Made by a program: the position numbers and the translations under genes. Under the pieces are notes generated by a model that searched no databases, was not told the origin of the DNA, and was given only the letters and a program-made list of their open reading frames with translations. DNA of 32,345 bases from a virus. This document shows, in pieces, positions 3,028 through 18,720 of this stretch (the stretch's first letter is position 1; each line of letters begins with the position of its first letter). The stretch is taken from positions 1 to 32,345 of IMG/VR virus record IMGVR_UViG_3300025687_000185, one strand, 5' to 3'.

Positions 3028-3984
3028 TTAAACATCATCCCCACGTAAACGGGCCTTAGTCTCTTCATCGAGCTTAGCAAACTTAGACTGAGACAGCTTC
3101 ATAATATCAATGCCCAATTCGCCGGCAACTCCCGCTTTATCCGAATCCACGCCTGCCTTATTGATAGGCGCTGGCTGTTTTTTATCGGCCTCGGCTGCTT
3201 TTTCACGAGCTTTACGGGCCCGGTCTGCCTTCATCACTGCCGTTTCTTCTTCTGAAGCAGCTTTGTCCTTAGAAACTGGGTTTCCTAGTACATACTTAAC
3301 TGATTTCTGCAACGAAACGTGACGGTTAAAACCACGAGCCATAAACGCTTCAACCAAAACCGCCACCTCGTCGGTCTTTTCTTCGTCGAAACTATCTAAA
3401 TCTGGGTTCAATTCCGGATACTCTGACTCAATACGGGCCAGAGCAGACTCGTACTTCATATCATCGATGGCGGCCTTACGGGCGGTGTCCGATTTAGTAC
3501 TGGTCTGTAATTCAATCAGCTCGTCGCGCATAGCATCCACTTCGCGGCGGACCTTACGAGCGGCTTCCTTCTCGCCGTCCATAATTAAGTCTTCGTATTT
3601 ATCCTGCAGCTCTTCGATTTTCGACTTCATGTCGGAAATTTCGTTGGTCTGTGTAGTAGAGCCTAATTGGCCCTCCAACTCCTCAATGCGACGGTTCAGC
3701 TCTGCTTCGCGAGCACGAGCCTTGGACACTGCTTCGTCGAACCGGGCTTTAGGTATACGGATATTGCGTTTACGGGCCTCTTCGGCCTCAGCCGCTTCGC
3801 GTTCTTCACGCTCTTCGTCAGTCTCTTCGCCCTCTTCCTCAGAAACGTCAGCCTCGGCTGCGGGCGCTTCATCCTCAGTTTCAGGTTCTACGTCCTTACC
3901 GGCGTCGGAAAGAGGGGACTCGCTAACCAGCTCGTCGCCACGGTCTACAACTTCTTCCTGCTCTACAACTTGTTCTTCACTCAT
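3028..3984 (-). CDS. Capsid scaffolding protein
   Basis: A 318-residue, highly charged protein directly before the major capsid gene, the usual place for a scaffold. Residues 1-70 are extremely acidic (runs of E and D with few hydrophobics). About 75-170 is a predicted coiled coil rich in E, K, R, A and L. The C-terminal part is a mixed, more basic helical region ending near FAKLDEETKARLRGDDV, the kind of end that binds capsid protein in other scaffolds. AGGGAGA before the ATG supports the start. Function is inferred from composition, length and position, since scaffolds diverge too far for motif recognition. No protease motif was seen. Confidence 0.8.
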   Translation of the reverse strand: MSEEQVVEQEEVVDRGDELVSESPLSDAGKDVEPETEDEAPAAEADVSEEEGEETDEEREEREAAEAEEARKRNIRIPKARFDEAVSKARAREAELNRRIEELEGQLGSTTQTNEISDMKSKIEELQDKYEDLIMDGEKEAARKVRREVDAMRDELIELQTSTKSDTARKAAIDDMKYESALARIESEYPELNPDLDSFDEEKTDEVAVLVEAFMARGFNRHVSLQKSVKYVLGNPVSKDKAASEEETAVMKADRARKAREKAAEADKKQPAPINKAGVDSDKAGVAGELGIDIMKLSQSKFAKLDEETKARLRGDDV

Positions 3985-6122: not shown

Positions 6123-7691
6123 TCACGCCGCCATGTGGCTTCCGCCAAAAGATGTAGTGTTCAATTTGTCTTTCCACGACGGAATATGGACGGCAGGTTT
6201 CTGGCTAGGGGGCTCTTTGTCCATGCACAGCCGAGTAGCCCATGCCAAGGCGTCAACCACGTCATCGTGTGCACCGGCTGGGAACCTCAGCAACTCTTGA
6301 ACGGCCTGCTCTTTCCAATGCGCCTCCTCAGGAAAAACTACGCGCCCCTGCTGCATGCGACCTTGTAACGGGCGGGCACGCACCATTTTATCAGTATACG
6401 GCCTTAGAACCTCAAACGACACATATTGTCGTCGTTCGAGACTCCGTTTCTTGTATAACGGCTCAATAGCGCGCCAGATCTGTCCATCTTCCACGCCAAT
6501 CATATAATCGCTGTTGTACGCGCTCTCGTAGCGCTTAGCAACATCGAGCATAGCCTCTACTATCGCAAAACTATCGCCCTTCATGCGATGGATGTCGAGA
6601 ACATATAGTACATCATTTTCGCTCTGCAGTATCGTGGCCCCTACGGTCCAGTCATTCTGCTGTTTCTGCCCAATAGCAAAGTCCCACGCCGTGTAGATGT
6701 GCGCATTTGCAGCCTCGGGCATAGAAATCTGAAACCGGAAATATTCCTTTTTGAAATATACACCCTCGTCCGGAGTAGGATTCTGCTGATACAGAGCGGA
6801 CCAAATACGAGGCTGCATGTTAGCCCGGATTTTCTGCAACGCGTCTGTAGGGTACCGCTCCTCGTGCAAACATGTTTCCGGAGGACGGAGTAACTGGAGA
6901 TTCGGGGTCTGCTCCTCAATTTTATCGTCTGTGCGGATAATCTCGTCTGTATCCGAGTCCAGATACTCCCATTTCTCAGACAGGGCGGGGTATTTGATAA
7001 TCTCAAACTGGTCCGCCTCTTTATCCGCCTGCATACTGTTCTGCAAACGCCCCGCCAAATCGTCGTCGTGCCACCACGTCTCGATCACCAACACTCCGCC
7101 GCCGGGGGCTAGTCGTGTGTACGCAGTCGACTGGTACCAGTCCCACAACTTGTCGCGTGTACCAACCGAATCCGCTTCCTCCTGATTTTTTAATGGGTCG
7201 TCAATAATCAGAATCGTCGCGCCCTTACCCGTAATACCGCCCCCAACACCGGCGGCGGTAAACCCGCCCCCAGCAGTTGTGTTCCACGCCTCTACGGATT
7301 GAGAGTTAGGATCAAGCTGCATGTGCGGGAACATGGCTGCGTACACTGGTTCGCGCACCAAATCACGGACTTTCCTCGAAAACCGCATGGGTAGGTCGAG
7401 GTTGTACCCGACATTGATGATTTCATGCTCAGGATTACGTCCTAAGTGCCACGCAGGGAAGCGGATCGAAGCGATTTCCGATTTACCATGCCGAGGTGGC
7501 ATCAGGAGCATAAGCCTAGGGGACTTTTTCTCCAGAACTTGCTGGCTAAACCGCTCGAGGCGGCGGCAAATATCGTCATGCACCCAACCGGCCTGGTACG
7601 TTGGGTGAGTTTGACTCGTAAACTGAAGCAGGCGGCGGCGTGCCAGTTCGCGGCGAGCTAAGATCTGCTTAACTGTCGATTTGTTCGCCAT
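6123..7691 (-). CDS. terL: Terminase large subunit (packaging ATPase and nuclease)
   Basis: A 522-residue DNA-packaging motor with both expected domains. ATPase: Walker A-like PPRHGKS at about 65-71, Walker B LIIDD at 161-165, and a coupling-motif candidate near VIETWWHDD. RNase H-like nuclease: D337 in YTAWDFAIG, E401/D402 in GVEDGQ and D476/D477/D480 in GAHDDVVDA form the expected acidic metal site. It docks on the portal and cuts concatemers. The start overlaps the end of terS by 23 bases, which couples their translation; no strong separate ribosome site is seen. All motifs look intact, so it should be active. Confidence 0.95.
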   Translation of the reverse strand: MANKSTVKQILARRELARRRLLQFTSQTHPTYQAGWVHDDICRRLERFSQQVLEKKSPRLMLLMPPRHGKSEIASIRFPAWHLGRNPEHEIINVGYNLDLPMRFSRKVRDLVREPVYAAMFPHMQLDPNSQSVEAWNTTAGGGFTAAGVGGGITGKGATILIIDDPLKNQEEADSVGTRDKLWDWYQSTAYTRLAPGGGVLVIETWWHDDDLAGRLQNSMQADKEADQFEIIKYPALSEKWEYLDSDTDEIIRTDDKIEEQTPNLQLLRPPETCLHEERYPTDALQKIRANMQPRIWSALYQQNPTPDEGVYFKKEYFRFQISMPEAANAHIYTAWDFAIGQKQQNDWTVGATILQSENDVLYVLDIHRMKGDSFAIVEAMLDVAKRYESAYNSDYMIGVEDGQIWRAIEPLYKKRSLERRQYVSFEVLRPYTDKMVRARPLQGRMQQGRVVFPEEAHWKEQAVQELLRFPAGAHDDVVDALAWATRLCMDKEPPSQKPAVHIPSWKDKLNTTSFGGSHMAA

Positions 7692-10352: not shown

Positions 10353-10643
10353 ATGATCATCGAAAGCGGAGTAATAATCTTCTTAGGTCTCGTCTTACTA
10401 GCCTTAAAACTGCCACTCAAAGTAACCTTGCGCTGGCTAGGTGTGCCGTTCGTACTCGATCTAAGCGCATCAGCACTAGCGTTCATCATGCACTACGGCA
10501 CGTTCTCGGGCGTCATGGCAGCAGCAGTCGCAGGTCTGATGGTATCAGGCTTTAGTTCAGCAGCCAGGTACGCAGTCGGCTACATCAAGGACAACAACTA
10601 CTACCCCGGCAAGATCTGGGATGTACGCGAAAAACTGCTCTAG
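10353..10643 (+). CDS. Small integral membrane protein
   Basis: A 96-residue protein with hydrophobic helices at about 5-20 (SGVIIFLGLVLLALKL), 28-50 and 50-72 (GVMAAAVAGLMVSGFSSAA), and a charged cytoplasmic-type tail ending KIWDVREKLL. It is likely a three-segment inner-membrane protein. The ATG at 10353 has GAGG about 10 bases upstream; an in-frame TTG at 10344 is a less likely start. A different open frame overlaps it from 10286 and has plausible N-terminal residues but an Arg/Ser/Thr-rich composition afterwards, so I prefer this frame. The stop codon lies inside the terminator stem. Function unknown. Confidence 0.6.
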   Translation: MIIESGVIIFLGLVLLALKLPLKVTLRWLGVPFVLDLSASALAFIMHYGTFSGVMAAAVAGLMVSGFSSAARYAVGYIKDNNYYPGKIWDVREKLL

Positions 10644-10666
10644 CAGCACTCTGCTAGGCCATTTTT
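10640..10666 (+). terminator. Intrinsic terminator ending the first early block
   Basis: CTAGCAG (10640-10646), loop CACT, CTGCTAG (10651-10657), then GCCATTTTTT. The stem is a perfect 7 bp and overlaps the TAG stop of the membrane protein gene. A further T-rich stretch follows. It separates the first early group from the origin-like region. The stem arms share the TGCTAG core of the neighbouring repeats. Confidence 0.75.
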
Positions 10667-10690
10667 TGCCTTTTCCTTTAAAATCAACGA

Positions 10691-10963
10691 CCTAGCAATC
10701 CTAGCAAAAACGGCACATAACCTCCCCTATATATAATGTATATTTACATAAATACATATTTTTTTAATTTGTTAAAAGAATAGGTGCTAGGAATGCTAGG
10801 AATGCTAGAACCCTTACTGCTATTGACTTCCCCCCTATCAAACCTAGCACGCTCTAGCATTCTGTATGCAAATAACCTTGCAATAAGTTAGTAAGTACTC
10901 ACATCAGAAAATGTTAGTGATCACTAACATAAACCCAATTTCGGCTTTTGCAAAATGCTAGAA
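10691..10963. repeat. Iteron-like TGCTAG repeats (eight copies)
   Basis: Copies read TTGCTAGG on the minus strand at 10691-10698 and 10700-10707 (9-bp period), TGCTAGGA/TGCTAGGA/TGCTAGAA on the plus strand at 10785-10792, 10794-10801 and 10803-10810 (9-bp period), minus-strand copies at 10843-10849 and 10853-10859, and a plus copy at 10956-10963. The AT-rich core lies between the first two groups. The last copy falls inside the spacer of the putative primase promoter. Confidence 0.75.
10911..10930. promoter_or_regulatory. Perfect 20-bp palindrome, putative operator
   Basis: ATGTTAGTGA followed directly by its exact reverse complement TCACTAACAT. It lies 16 bp upstream of the -35 box of the primase promoter candidate. 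A symmetric 20-bp site without a spacer suits a dimeric DNA-binding protein; the protein is unknown. Confidence 0.7.
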
Positions 10964-10975
10964 CACAAGTATACT
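10947..10975 (+). promoter_or_regulatory. Promoter candidate for the primase-helicase gene
   Basis: TTTGCA (10947-10952), 17 bases, TATACT (10970-10975); a register using TTGCAA with 16 bases is equally possible. The -10 matches 5 of 6 and the -35 4 of 6. The predicted start near 10982 leaves a leader of about 37 nt before the ATG. A TGCTAGAA repeat occupies the spacer. Confidence 0.5.
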
Positions 10976-11018
10976 TGCCGTCCTTCTACTGACTCTAAAA
11001 CTACAAAACGGAGCGCAT

Positions 11019-13355
11019 ATGGACTTCGATTTTCTGTCTGCGGACAAGCCAATCGTCAAAAAGTACGAACTCAACGCAGACAATTCCATTCACAAGCACA
11101 GTTATCCATTCATCTACGAAGTCACTAGCCACCACGAACGCTGCTCTAAAATCGAAGACCTTTATCAAGCCATCGCAGACCACTCAACTCGTGGGCACTG
11201 CCTGCTTAAAGGCCGCCTCACCCGCCCTCTGTCCGCAGAATCTAGGGCCGGAACAACTAATCCAGACGACCCCACACGCTGGATCTGCCTCGACCTTGAC
11301 GGCATAGACAACTACGCCTCAGTTGACGAGTTCTTAGCCGACATCGGAGTCGGGGACTCCGACTACGTCCTACAGTGGTCCTCGTCTCAAGGTATCGAAT
11401 CTCAAGCCGGCCTGCGCTGCCATGTCTTTATGCTGCTTGATAAAGAAACCCACCCCAAGATGCTGAAATACTGGCTCCAACAACTCAATCTAGTAACTTC
11501 GAACATAGAACGTCAGCTCGAACTAACCAAAACCGGTAACAGCCTCCGTTTTCCACTCGACATCACCACATGCCAAAACGACAAACTCTTGTATATAAGC
11601 CCACCGGACCTTGGTCCGGGAATCTCAGACCCGTTCGCCTCCAAACCACGTATTGAGCTCATCAAACGCAAAAGACGTACAATCACCCTCCCTCAAGTGC
11701 TGCCTACACGCGAAGCCTTACGCCAGCAAGTAGACTCAAAGGTCAACTTTCTTCGAGCCAATGCCGGGCTTCCTAAGCGCCGTAGTACTAAATTCAAATT
11801 CGCAGGCCAGATCGAGTACATGGAAAAACCCGACTCGGCCGTCATCACTGACGTAAAGTCCGAACGCAATTTCGTGTACTTCAATTTAAACGGCGGGGAT
11901 TCATGGGCATATTACCACCCGATCGATAACCCACAATTTATCTTTAATTTCAAAGGCGAACCCGTATATCGCACTCAAGACTTGCTCCCTGAATACTGGG
12001 CCCGTCTCTCCTCTAGTGCTCAATCAGGTAAACCTGATCACGCAGGACGTATTTACTTAGCGTTTCGAGACTTCAAAACCAGCAACTACTACAACGGCTA
12101 CTACGACCAGGGCGCGGAGCGCCTAACCTTGGCGCAAGCCAAATCCGAGACCCAGCTGCGTCAATTCATGGCACAACACAACCGCCCCATGGGCGAAAAC
12201 GTGCCTGATTGGGACATTATTTGGGACCCGCACAGCTCCACAGTAGTAGACCCTACCAATCGGTCTCTGAATATCTATCAGCCTAGCGAATACTTTCAAA
12301 TGGAGCCGAGCAGCTTACCTACTCAAATCCCTCCTACAATCGAAAAAATAATCGACCACGTATTAGGTAACGACCCACAAACAGTAGATCACTTCATAAA
12401 CTGGTTAAGCGTGATCGTGCAAAAGCTAACGATCACAGGCACTGCTTGGGTATGGCAAGGCACACAAGGCACAGGCAAAGGAATTTTGTTCCACAAGATC
12501 CTAACTCCGATTTTTGGAGATCCGAACGTTGTTTCGAAGCGAATGGAGGAACTGACTTCTGAATTTACAGAATTTATGGAGAATAAATTCATTGTATTCA
12601 TCGACGAAATTGAGTCTGGACGGAGTCTGTACCACAACAAAGTGATGTCAAAGCTAAAGAATCTGATCGTAGAACCTACGATCTCGATTCGGAAAATGTA
12701 TACCTCAGCGTTCAACGCCAAAAACTACGCCAATATGATCTTTGCGTCGAATAAATCGATGCCTGTTGAAGTCGATCCTGATGACCGTCGTTACAACGTC
12801 GGTCCATATCAGACGAAAAAGATTCAGATATCGAGTCACGAGATCGACGAGCTGCTGCCCCAAGAGCTGCCAGTATTTATGAACTACTTACTACAGTACC
12901 CAGCGGATACGCACCGAGCTAGAAACCCACTTGTTAATGAAGCACGTAGAACTCTGATCAATATTGGCAGAACAGCCATCGACACAGTATCCGACGCTTT
13001 GCTCCAGGGAGATTTAGAGTTTCTGTGGGATCACCTACCTAGCTCGAAGCACTCAGATGCCAACAGCCTGTCTGTCTCGTTCAAACTCGAAGCGTTCAAG
13101 AACTTAATGGTCGATCTTGTAAAAACAGGTGAAAACAAGCTCTCACGAGATGATCTATTAGTGATCTTCGACTGGTGCATAGGCAACATGCCGATGAGCC
13201 CAAATAAATTTTCTGCTCTTTTGAAACACCACCGAATACATATGAAACAAATATGGAAAGACAATCGAAATATACGAGGAATTGAAGTTACTTGGCGCTA
13301 TGACGCTACATGGCATAAAAACGCGCTGCAAGAGATTGCTCACGGCGCTATCTAA
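11019..13355 (+). CDS. Primase-polymerase / SF3-type helicase fusion
   Basis: A 778-residue replication protein. The N-terminal part fits an archaeo-eukaryotic primase (PrimPol) core: D92 and D94 in ICLDLDG, H135 in LRCHVF and D181 in RFPLDIT correspond to the hhDhD, sxH and hD motifs. The C-terminal part is a D5/DUF5906-like superfamily 3 helicase: Walker A GTQGTGKG at 481-488, Walker B FIVFIDE at 524-530 and a sensor asparagine N578 in FASNKS. Such fusions (NrS-1 polymerase is the best known phage example) prime, unwind and sometimes polymerise DNA, replacing separate DnaG- and DnaB-type proteins. GGAG precedes the ATG. The gene follows the origin-like repeats it may act on. Domain assignment of the primase half is from motifs only. 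Confidence 0.85.
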   Translation: MDFDFLSADKPIVKKYELNADNSIHKHSYPFIYEVTSHHERCSKIEDLYQAIADHSTRGHCLLKGRLTRPLSAESRAGTTNPDDPTRWICLDLDGIDNYASVDEFLADIGVGDSDYVLQWSSSQGIESQAGLRCHVFMLLDKETHPKMLKYWLQQLNLVTSNIERQLELTKTGNSLRFPLDITTCQNDKLLYISPPDLGPGISDPFASKPRIELIKRKRRTITLPQVLPTREALRQQVDSKVNFLRANAGLPKRRSTKFKFAGQIEYMEKPDSAVITDVKSERNFVYFNLNGGDSWAYYHPIDNPQFIFNFKGEPVYRTQDLLPEYWARLSSSAQSGKPDHAGRIYLAFRDFKTSNYYNGYYDQGAERLTLAQAKSETQLRQFMAQHNRPMGENVPDWDIIWDPHSSTVVDPTNRSLNIYQPSEYFQMEPSSLPTQIPPTIEKIIDHVLGNDPQTVDHFINWLSVIVQKLTITGTAWVWQGTQGTGKGILFHKILTPIFGDPNVVSKRMEELTSEFTEFMENKFIVFIDEIESGRSLYHNKVMSKLKNLIVEPTISIRKMYTSAFNAKNYANMIFASNKSMPVEVDPDDRRYNVGPYQTKKIQISSHEIDELLPQELPVFMNYLLQYPADTHRARNPLVNEARRTLINIGRTAIDTVSDALLQGDLEFLWDHLPSSKHSDANSLSVSFKLEAFKNLMVDLVKTGENKLSRDDLLVIFDWCIGNMPMSPNKFSALLKHHRIHMKQIWKDNRNIRGIEVTWRYDATWHKNALQEIAHGAI

Positions 13356-18039: not shown

Positions 18040-18720
18040 ATGGCAGTTGTTCATTTTTCCCAAAAACTACGCGATGAAATCCTCAAAAAAGGCAGACGGA
18101 TTTACATAGATAAAATGGAAAAGCACAAAGATGCTTTTCCAGCAGCATTCAACAAAGATCTGTACGAAGCACTTATGTCTCCGTACATCGGGACTATTAA
18201 CAAGCTTCCTACTCAGTTCTTTTCCCAGATTACTACCATCAATGTACTGTCTGTATCTGGCGTAAAAGTAGAAAAGGAGTATACAACCGGTAATCCGGTG
18301 GTATGGCCGTATATCTCCACTTCGCAAGCGTTTAAAGAGCTGTTCCCGTATGTACAAAGTGAATATACGTACCGCAACACTGAGATTAATCTAGCAGTTA
18401 AAGATTTAGATGGCCTATTTGCTCACCGCCCAGTGTTAGAGCCATACCGCGAGCCTTTAATAAACTGGGTAGCTAAAGCTCAAGAAATTAAAGCCCAAAG
18501 CGAAAAGTTTGAAGCTGGCGTTAAAGACATTATCAATTCATACAAGACGCTAGCTCCTGCACTAAAAGCATGGCCGCCGCTATGGGACCTTCTTCCTGAA
18601 GATGCACAAACTCGTCACAAACAGACGGCTACACGTAAGTCAGCCAACGTAGTAGATGAGTTAGATGTCGATCTAAACGCCCTAACTTCAGCCGTTGTGT
18701 CACATAAACTTGGGGTTTAA
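18040..18720 (+). CDS. Protein of unknown function, faint resemblance to Nmad5
   Basis: A 226-residue protein opening with a helical segment (LRDEILKKGRRIYIDKMEKH), then a beta-rich middle (about 55-85) and a helical tail. The overall pattern faintly recalls Nmad5-type phage proteins predicted to be associated with nucleotide modification; this is memory-based and weak, and no catalytic residues can be named. The ribosome site AAGGAGA is strong. It follows the VWA gene by 10 bases and its stop abuts the next ATG. It may instead belong functionally with the ATPase/VWA set. Confidence 0.6.
   Translation: MAVVHFSQKLRDEILKKGRRIYIDKMEKHKDAFPAAFNKDLYEALMSPYIGTINKLPTQFFSQITTINVLSVSGVKVEKEYTTGNPVVWPYISTSQAFKELFPYVQSEYTYRNTEINLAVKDLDGLFAHRPVLEPYREPLINWVAKAQEIKAQSEKFEAGVKDIINSYKTLAPALKAWPPLWDLLPEDAQTRHKQTATRKSANVVDELDVDLNALTSAVVSHKLGV

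Follow-up and report, generated by a model that had tools for sequence, protein, structure and literature searches.

Iteron origins of replication are known, and the evolution of initiator specificity is rarely readable at the level of residues and bases. The alpha protein of P4, with ori1 and crr, works similarly to PICI-type origins. The rep-ori modules of PICIs and SaPIs combine element-specific iteron words with a self-loading initiator helicase of the D5/SF3 type that has a C-terminal double-stranded DNA-binding domain, and the origin lies directly 3′ of the rep gene. In PICI origins, two sets of iterons surround an AT-rich region (PMC6092414). The isolated C-terminal domain of SCCmec Cch2 binds the 5-nt iterons of a putative origin (PMC7581432); the iterons number only three, the primase is a separate protein, and no residue code is reported, three points on which that system differs from the one described here. 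For the NrS-1 PrimPol (PDB 6k9c, 6k9e, and 6lrb), the literature examined reports a link to short template sites only, among them the published 8-nt primase site TTTGGTTA (PMC8718748). Finally, the cultured phages closest to the virus analyzed here are KPP25 (Kochitakasuvirus) and phiR18, which belong to PHROG 24712 and whose PrimPol-helicase is 41% identical over 98%; no recognizable array was found upstream of this gene in KPP25.

The DNA under study is a 32,345-bp virus record (IMG/VR IMGVR_UViG_3300025687_000185), a fragment referred to in its full length as the window, in which a first-pass annotation had proposed a candidate replication origin at 10667 to 11018. Eight copies of TGCTAG are indeed present, at 10692(−), 10701(−), 10785(+), 10794(+), 10803(+), 10844(−), 10854(−), and 10956(+), directly 5′ of the gene for a PrimPol-helicase (11019 to 13355, plus strand). 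A left pair on the minus strand (10692 to 10697 and 10701 to 10706) and a right triple on the plus strand (10785 to 10808, sequence TGCTAGGAA TGCTAGGAA TGCTAGAA) show the claimed 9-bp period and the claimed reversal of orientation across an AT-rich core; these are followed by a second minus-strand pair with a 10-bp period (10844 to 10849 and 10854 to 10859), an element that also occurs in relatives, and by a single, promoter-proximal plus-strand copy (10956 to 10961). The core (10723 to 10782), a putative melting site, is the AT-richest 60-mer of the window (85% AT), and the inner iteron blocks around it form a 16-nt inverted repeat (arms 10691 to 10706 and 10785 to 10800) that is 94% complementary.

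The 20 TGCTAG sites of the window do not exceed the chance level (mean, 17), and the signal is therefore one of clustering: 322 bp (10640 to 10961) hold 10 of the 20. The word occurs 10 times in the 500 bp 5′ of the gene, compared with a maximum of 5 in 200 shuffles of that stretch, and none of the 309 other 500-bp stretches of the window has an equally frequent word. The enrichment expected by the annotation is thus borne out, and the observation that would have spoken against it, sites equally frequent elsewhere, was not made within the window; the window being a fragment, whole-genome word counts were made in relatives. Slippage can multiply short words in AT-rich intergenic sequence, and the plus-side copies of some relatives resemble simple repeats, but functionless repeats produced by chance or slippage are exceedingly improbable here, given a clustering beyond that of the shuffles, a geometry and word frame that are conserved while the sequence changes, a protein residue that predicts the sequence, and blind predictions that contradict this explanation (see below).

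Several other elements surround the array. An intrinsic terminator serving the upstream gene (10639 to 10658, plus strand; 8-bp stem, loop of 4, CCATTTTTTG) has two of the 10 clustered sites, 10640(−) and 10652(+), as its stem arms, and these two copies probably do not belong to the origin core. A perfect 20-bp palindrome, ATGTTAGTGATCACTAACAT (10911 to 10930), is located between array and gene and may be an operator for another regulator. Rfam and tRNA scans gave no match, and neither did a DNA-level similarity search of the region against phage records. The 15-mer TGCTAGGAATGCTAG had 47 scattered matches in viral contigs, of which only L120, the contig of the near-identical relative L006, was recognized as related.

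The product of the adjacent gene, the proposed initiator (778 amino acids), carries DUF5906 and VapE-like helicase signatures and is a member of PHROG 24712. Residues D92, D94, H135, and D181 and the Walker A motif (481 to 488) are invariant in 60 relatives, and the four residues appear to fit an AEP primase (DxD, H, and D). No initiator of the Rep_3/RepA type was found next to the iterons, the neighboring gene having only DUF5906/VapE-like helicase and primase signatures. The gene belongs to a plus-strand replication operon (PrimPol-helicase, AAA ATPase, PD-(D/E)XK nuclease, SNF2-type helicase, family-A DNA polymerase, and dNMP kinase), and the minus strand encodes the small and large terminase, a P22-type portal, and capsid proteins. 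At 18040 to 18720, the nucleotide modification associated domain Nmad5 is matched weakly, with a score under the curated cutoff, which hints at modified DNA. In three relatives (L181, L195, and L203), the PrimPol-helicase reaches 1,065 to 1,080 amino acids through an intein (PF14890) beside the helicase Walker region; that of L291 (1,062 amino acids) has a similar look.

In organization, the window array resembles the origins of satellites (PICI/SaPI) and of P4. The fold matches of the PrimPol-helicase include the SaPI5 primase-helicase (7ola) and PriRep1 with double-stranded DNA (7pds), and covariation together with structural models suggests that, as in the PICI/SaPI systems, the C-terminal domain of the initiator reads the iterons. 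In contrast to those systems, the window array lies 5′ of the gene, the primase, a PrimPol, and the helicase are fused, and the element is not a satellite but a phage with its own capsid, P22-type portal, and terminase genes. Classification of the window as a PICI was accordingly rejected on two grounds, the 5′ position of the array and the phage's own head genes. With P4 alpha, the window protein shares primase, helicase, and, by prediction, origin binding in one polypeptide; the iterons at two genome sites, as at ori1 and crr, recur in relatives of the window, whereas the window fragment itself has one array, and the word, the spacing, and the phage type differ.

Profile searches of viral contigs yielded about 100 distinct relatives; in bacterial genomes, the PrimPol profile detected none. 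The conservation of the array that the annotation had suggested looking for is found in many of these relatives as a recurrent layout with other repeat words. In many, the array lies 50 to 450 bp before the gene; in others, it lies at 0.5 to 1.2 kb, with intervening genes or with the array further up. About 20 distant relatives have no array upstream of the gene. In the shared layout, two iterons on the minus strand come first, followed by an AT-rich core, by two to four iterons on the plus strand spaced 8 to 9 bp apart, and by another minus-strand pair. Relative to the gene, these elements are at about −327/−318, −234 to −216, and −175/−165 in the window, and at −324/−310, −229/−221, and −178/−167 in the relative L024. 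The repeat words vary (TGCTAG, CGTAAG, TGGAAG, TGGAAC, TGAGAT, TGTAAT, and TGTAAC), and all conform to the frame Y-R-n3-n4-A-n6. The first two letters tend to be TA in copies adjacent to the core, as opposed to TG or CG further out (L022, for example, has TAGAAG beside CGGAAG); this may reflect selection for melting. The AT-rich core often begins with a CTATATAG-like box, and in many relatives this box left of the core is accompanied by a semiconserved motif, ATCAAnnACTTAG, right of the plus-strand iterons; both are possible primer start or helper-protein sites. A simple count of 6-mers was insensitive (P ≤ 0.01 in only 15 of 75 relatives), and a frame-based word caller was therefore used.

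The word varies in step with two residues of the PrimPol-helicase. Words were assigned by eye before any protein was viewed, and the alignment columns were then asked which one follows the word; the best column was residue 744 for n3 and residue 746 for n6. Among the 45 relatives with automatic word calls at P ≤ 0.02, n3 was G in 23 of 23 with K or R at 744 and in 0 of 22 otherwise, whereas n6 was G in all 26 with W746 and C in all 13 with R or K at 746. On a tree with 62 labeled tips (automatic calls at P ≤ 0.05, by-eye labels for the remainder), K/R744 and n3 = G agree in 62 of 62, each changing 8 times and jointly 8 times, and R/K746 and n6 = C agree in 61 of 62; agreement in the next-best columns is 85% and 89%. 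For comparison, 300 traits per base, similar in frequency and number of changes, were simulated on this tree and scanned across 42,109 column splits: the best column averaged 86 to 87% and never exceeded 93.5%, so that 0 of 300 reached the observed agreement. L058 (K/W, GAAG) and L063 (R/R, GAAC) are a natural sister pair that differs in these residues and in the word.

The code was also examined in relatives found later, with predictions from residues 744 and 746 written down before their words were called. Across 15 distinct loci (word P ≤ 0.05, C terminus present), n3 was correct in 12 of 14 and n6 in 14 of 15, the misses being L204 (n3) and L289 (n3 and n6; a low-complexity word). L271 (V, R) had TAAC as predicted, although this combination was absent from the first set. 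Two arrays beyond 450 bp likewise agree with the code, namely, GAAC at −1031 to −732 in L074 (R, K) and TAAC at −1200 to −965 in L086 (P, R); the exceptions outside the blind set are L036, L089, and L225. These results bear on whether another DNA-binding protein, such as a small XRE-type HTH protein, reads the repeats, as might be suggested by the HTH-like ORFs between the array and the PrimPol gene in one subclade (L007, L009, L010, L016, L019, and L044) and by TGCTAG copies just before the HTH gene of L007. Such a reader is very unlikely, considering that the window and most relatives encode no HTH protein there and that two PrimPol-helicase residues predict the word over 8 independent switches and in held-out loci. 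In L007, three TGCTAG copies (3469 to 3520) precede the XRE-like HTH gene, and the main array uses GTAAG words.

Both residues fall in a C-terminal winged-helix domain predicted by AlphaFold2 (residues 684 to 756; 13068 to 13286, plus strand). The whole protein was modeled with a pLDDT of 91, and the C-terminal 141 residues were modeled with a pLDDT of 93 and a pTM of 0.84; helices at 684 to 703, 710 to 720, and 728 to 737 are followed by wing strands at 743 to 747 and 750 to 756. The candidate specificity residues in the window, identified by covariation, are Q744 (13248 to 13250) and W746 (13254 to 13256) of the first wing strand (plus strand); as alternate residues of one strand, they should face the same side, and they may touch the bases. 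The pairing of K or R with G, and of R or K with a G on the partner strand, makes chemical sense. The residues of the recognition helix, which were the first candidates for reading the word, were rejected, being largely conserved while the word changes.

The distant NrS-1 offers a further comparison. Its PrimPol shares with the window protein homologous AAA+/SF3 helicase and C-terminal regions (helicase region, sequence E value of 3.7e−28 and Foldseek E value of 3e−28; winged-helix counterpart in VIA-align, Z score of 7.2 over 107 residues at 3.9 Å), whereas the proteins are distant overall. In NrS-1 (L015, AB746912), 11 TGTAAC sites that fit the frame span about 315 bp (7019 to 7334) directly behind the PrimPol gene, which ends at 7008, unlike the window array, which precedes its gene. 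In an hhalign alignment, gapless in the wing stretch, the counterparts of residues 744 and 746 are V and K. The code then calls for n3 = T and n6 = C, which is what the array shows; because the array had been seen before the alignment was made, the agreement tests consistency only and does not count as a blind prediction. The hhalign probability is only about 50%, making the register plausible but not certain, and MAFFT profile addition set the NrS-1 wing in another register; the hhalign register was used. The published primase site TTTGGTTA occurs once in the NrS-1 locus, inside the TGTAAC array. No iteron origin is described for NrS-1 in the literature examined, the original 2017 paper aside, and the array behind its PrimPol gene is probably an unreported origin.

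Initiators commonly autoregulate. In the window, the array separates the upstream gene from the start codon, and copy 10956 sits between weak −35-like (10947) and −10-like (10970 to 10975) matches, a promoter-like match at the chance level; the PrimPol-helicase might then bind the array only to repress its own promoter, with the origin elsewhere. We consider this unlikely. An AT-rich core and paired blocks of divergent orientation are not features that an operator requires, and the NrS-1 array lies behind its gene. Furthermore, when clusters of each genome's own word were ranked in 19 long relatives (59 to 73 kb), the array preceding the PrimPol gene came first or second, and about ten of these relatives have a second array of the same word, 26 to 43 kb away, at or near the 3′ end of a giant virion protein gene (for example, L297, 14444 to 14547; L299, 8668 to 8818; and L306, 2571 to 2737). 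Replication explains these second arrays behind a late gene, and the downstream position in NrS-1, better than simple autoregulation does. At 27.9 to 28.5 kb of the window, where relatives have a second array, none was found, and the window fragment contains a single array. The GC skew that had been put forward as a check gave no independent support: the cumulative minimum of the window is near 17 kb, away from the array. Among 19 contigs, roughly 11 to 12 have the cumulative maximum, rather than the minimum, within about 5 kb of the array, which was not counted as support because it tracks the divergent gene orientation.

The candidate origin of the first-pass annotation is thus supported by the layout in relatives, by the prediction of the word from residues 744 and 746, and by genome-wide clustering, all of them evidence from sequences and models. 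It is highly likely that the array is a replication origin, or at least an initiator-binding site, of a podovirus-like phage, bound by the adjacent PrimPol-helicase via its winged-helix domain, with residue 744 reading n3 and residue 746 reading n6. Very probably, the PrimPol-helicase binds the iterons and opens the AT-rich core. Under the proposed mechanism, the C-terminal winged-helix domain would bind the TGCTAG iterons, with wing residues 744 and 746 contacting n3 and n6 of the frame Y-R-n3-n4-A-n6; the iterons on both sides point outward from the core, and their occupation would lead to initiator rings at either flank and to melting of the core. The PrimPol-helicase would then unwind the DNA, prime at the array, and hand over to the phage family-A polymerase. 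Copy 10956 and its neighbors could, in addition, autoregulate the PrimPol-helicase gene.

Taken as a type, this is a known kind of iteron origin; the new part is the readable code and its evolution. The code is likely a modular one of amino acids to bases, shared by a wide group of PrimPol-helicase initiators from the phage clade to NrS-1, in which two wing residues choose two bases of each iteron, origin specificity switches by one or two substitutions, origins can be located and read from the protein sequence alone, and many of these phages have two origins. Nature offers at least 8 independent switches as well as sister pairs with a one-letter difference in the word, and the code also fits the distant, structurally solved NrS-1. 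Such a code would allow origins to be located in uncultured phages and would make the coevolution of origin and initiator directly testable.
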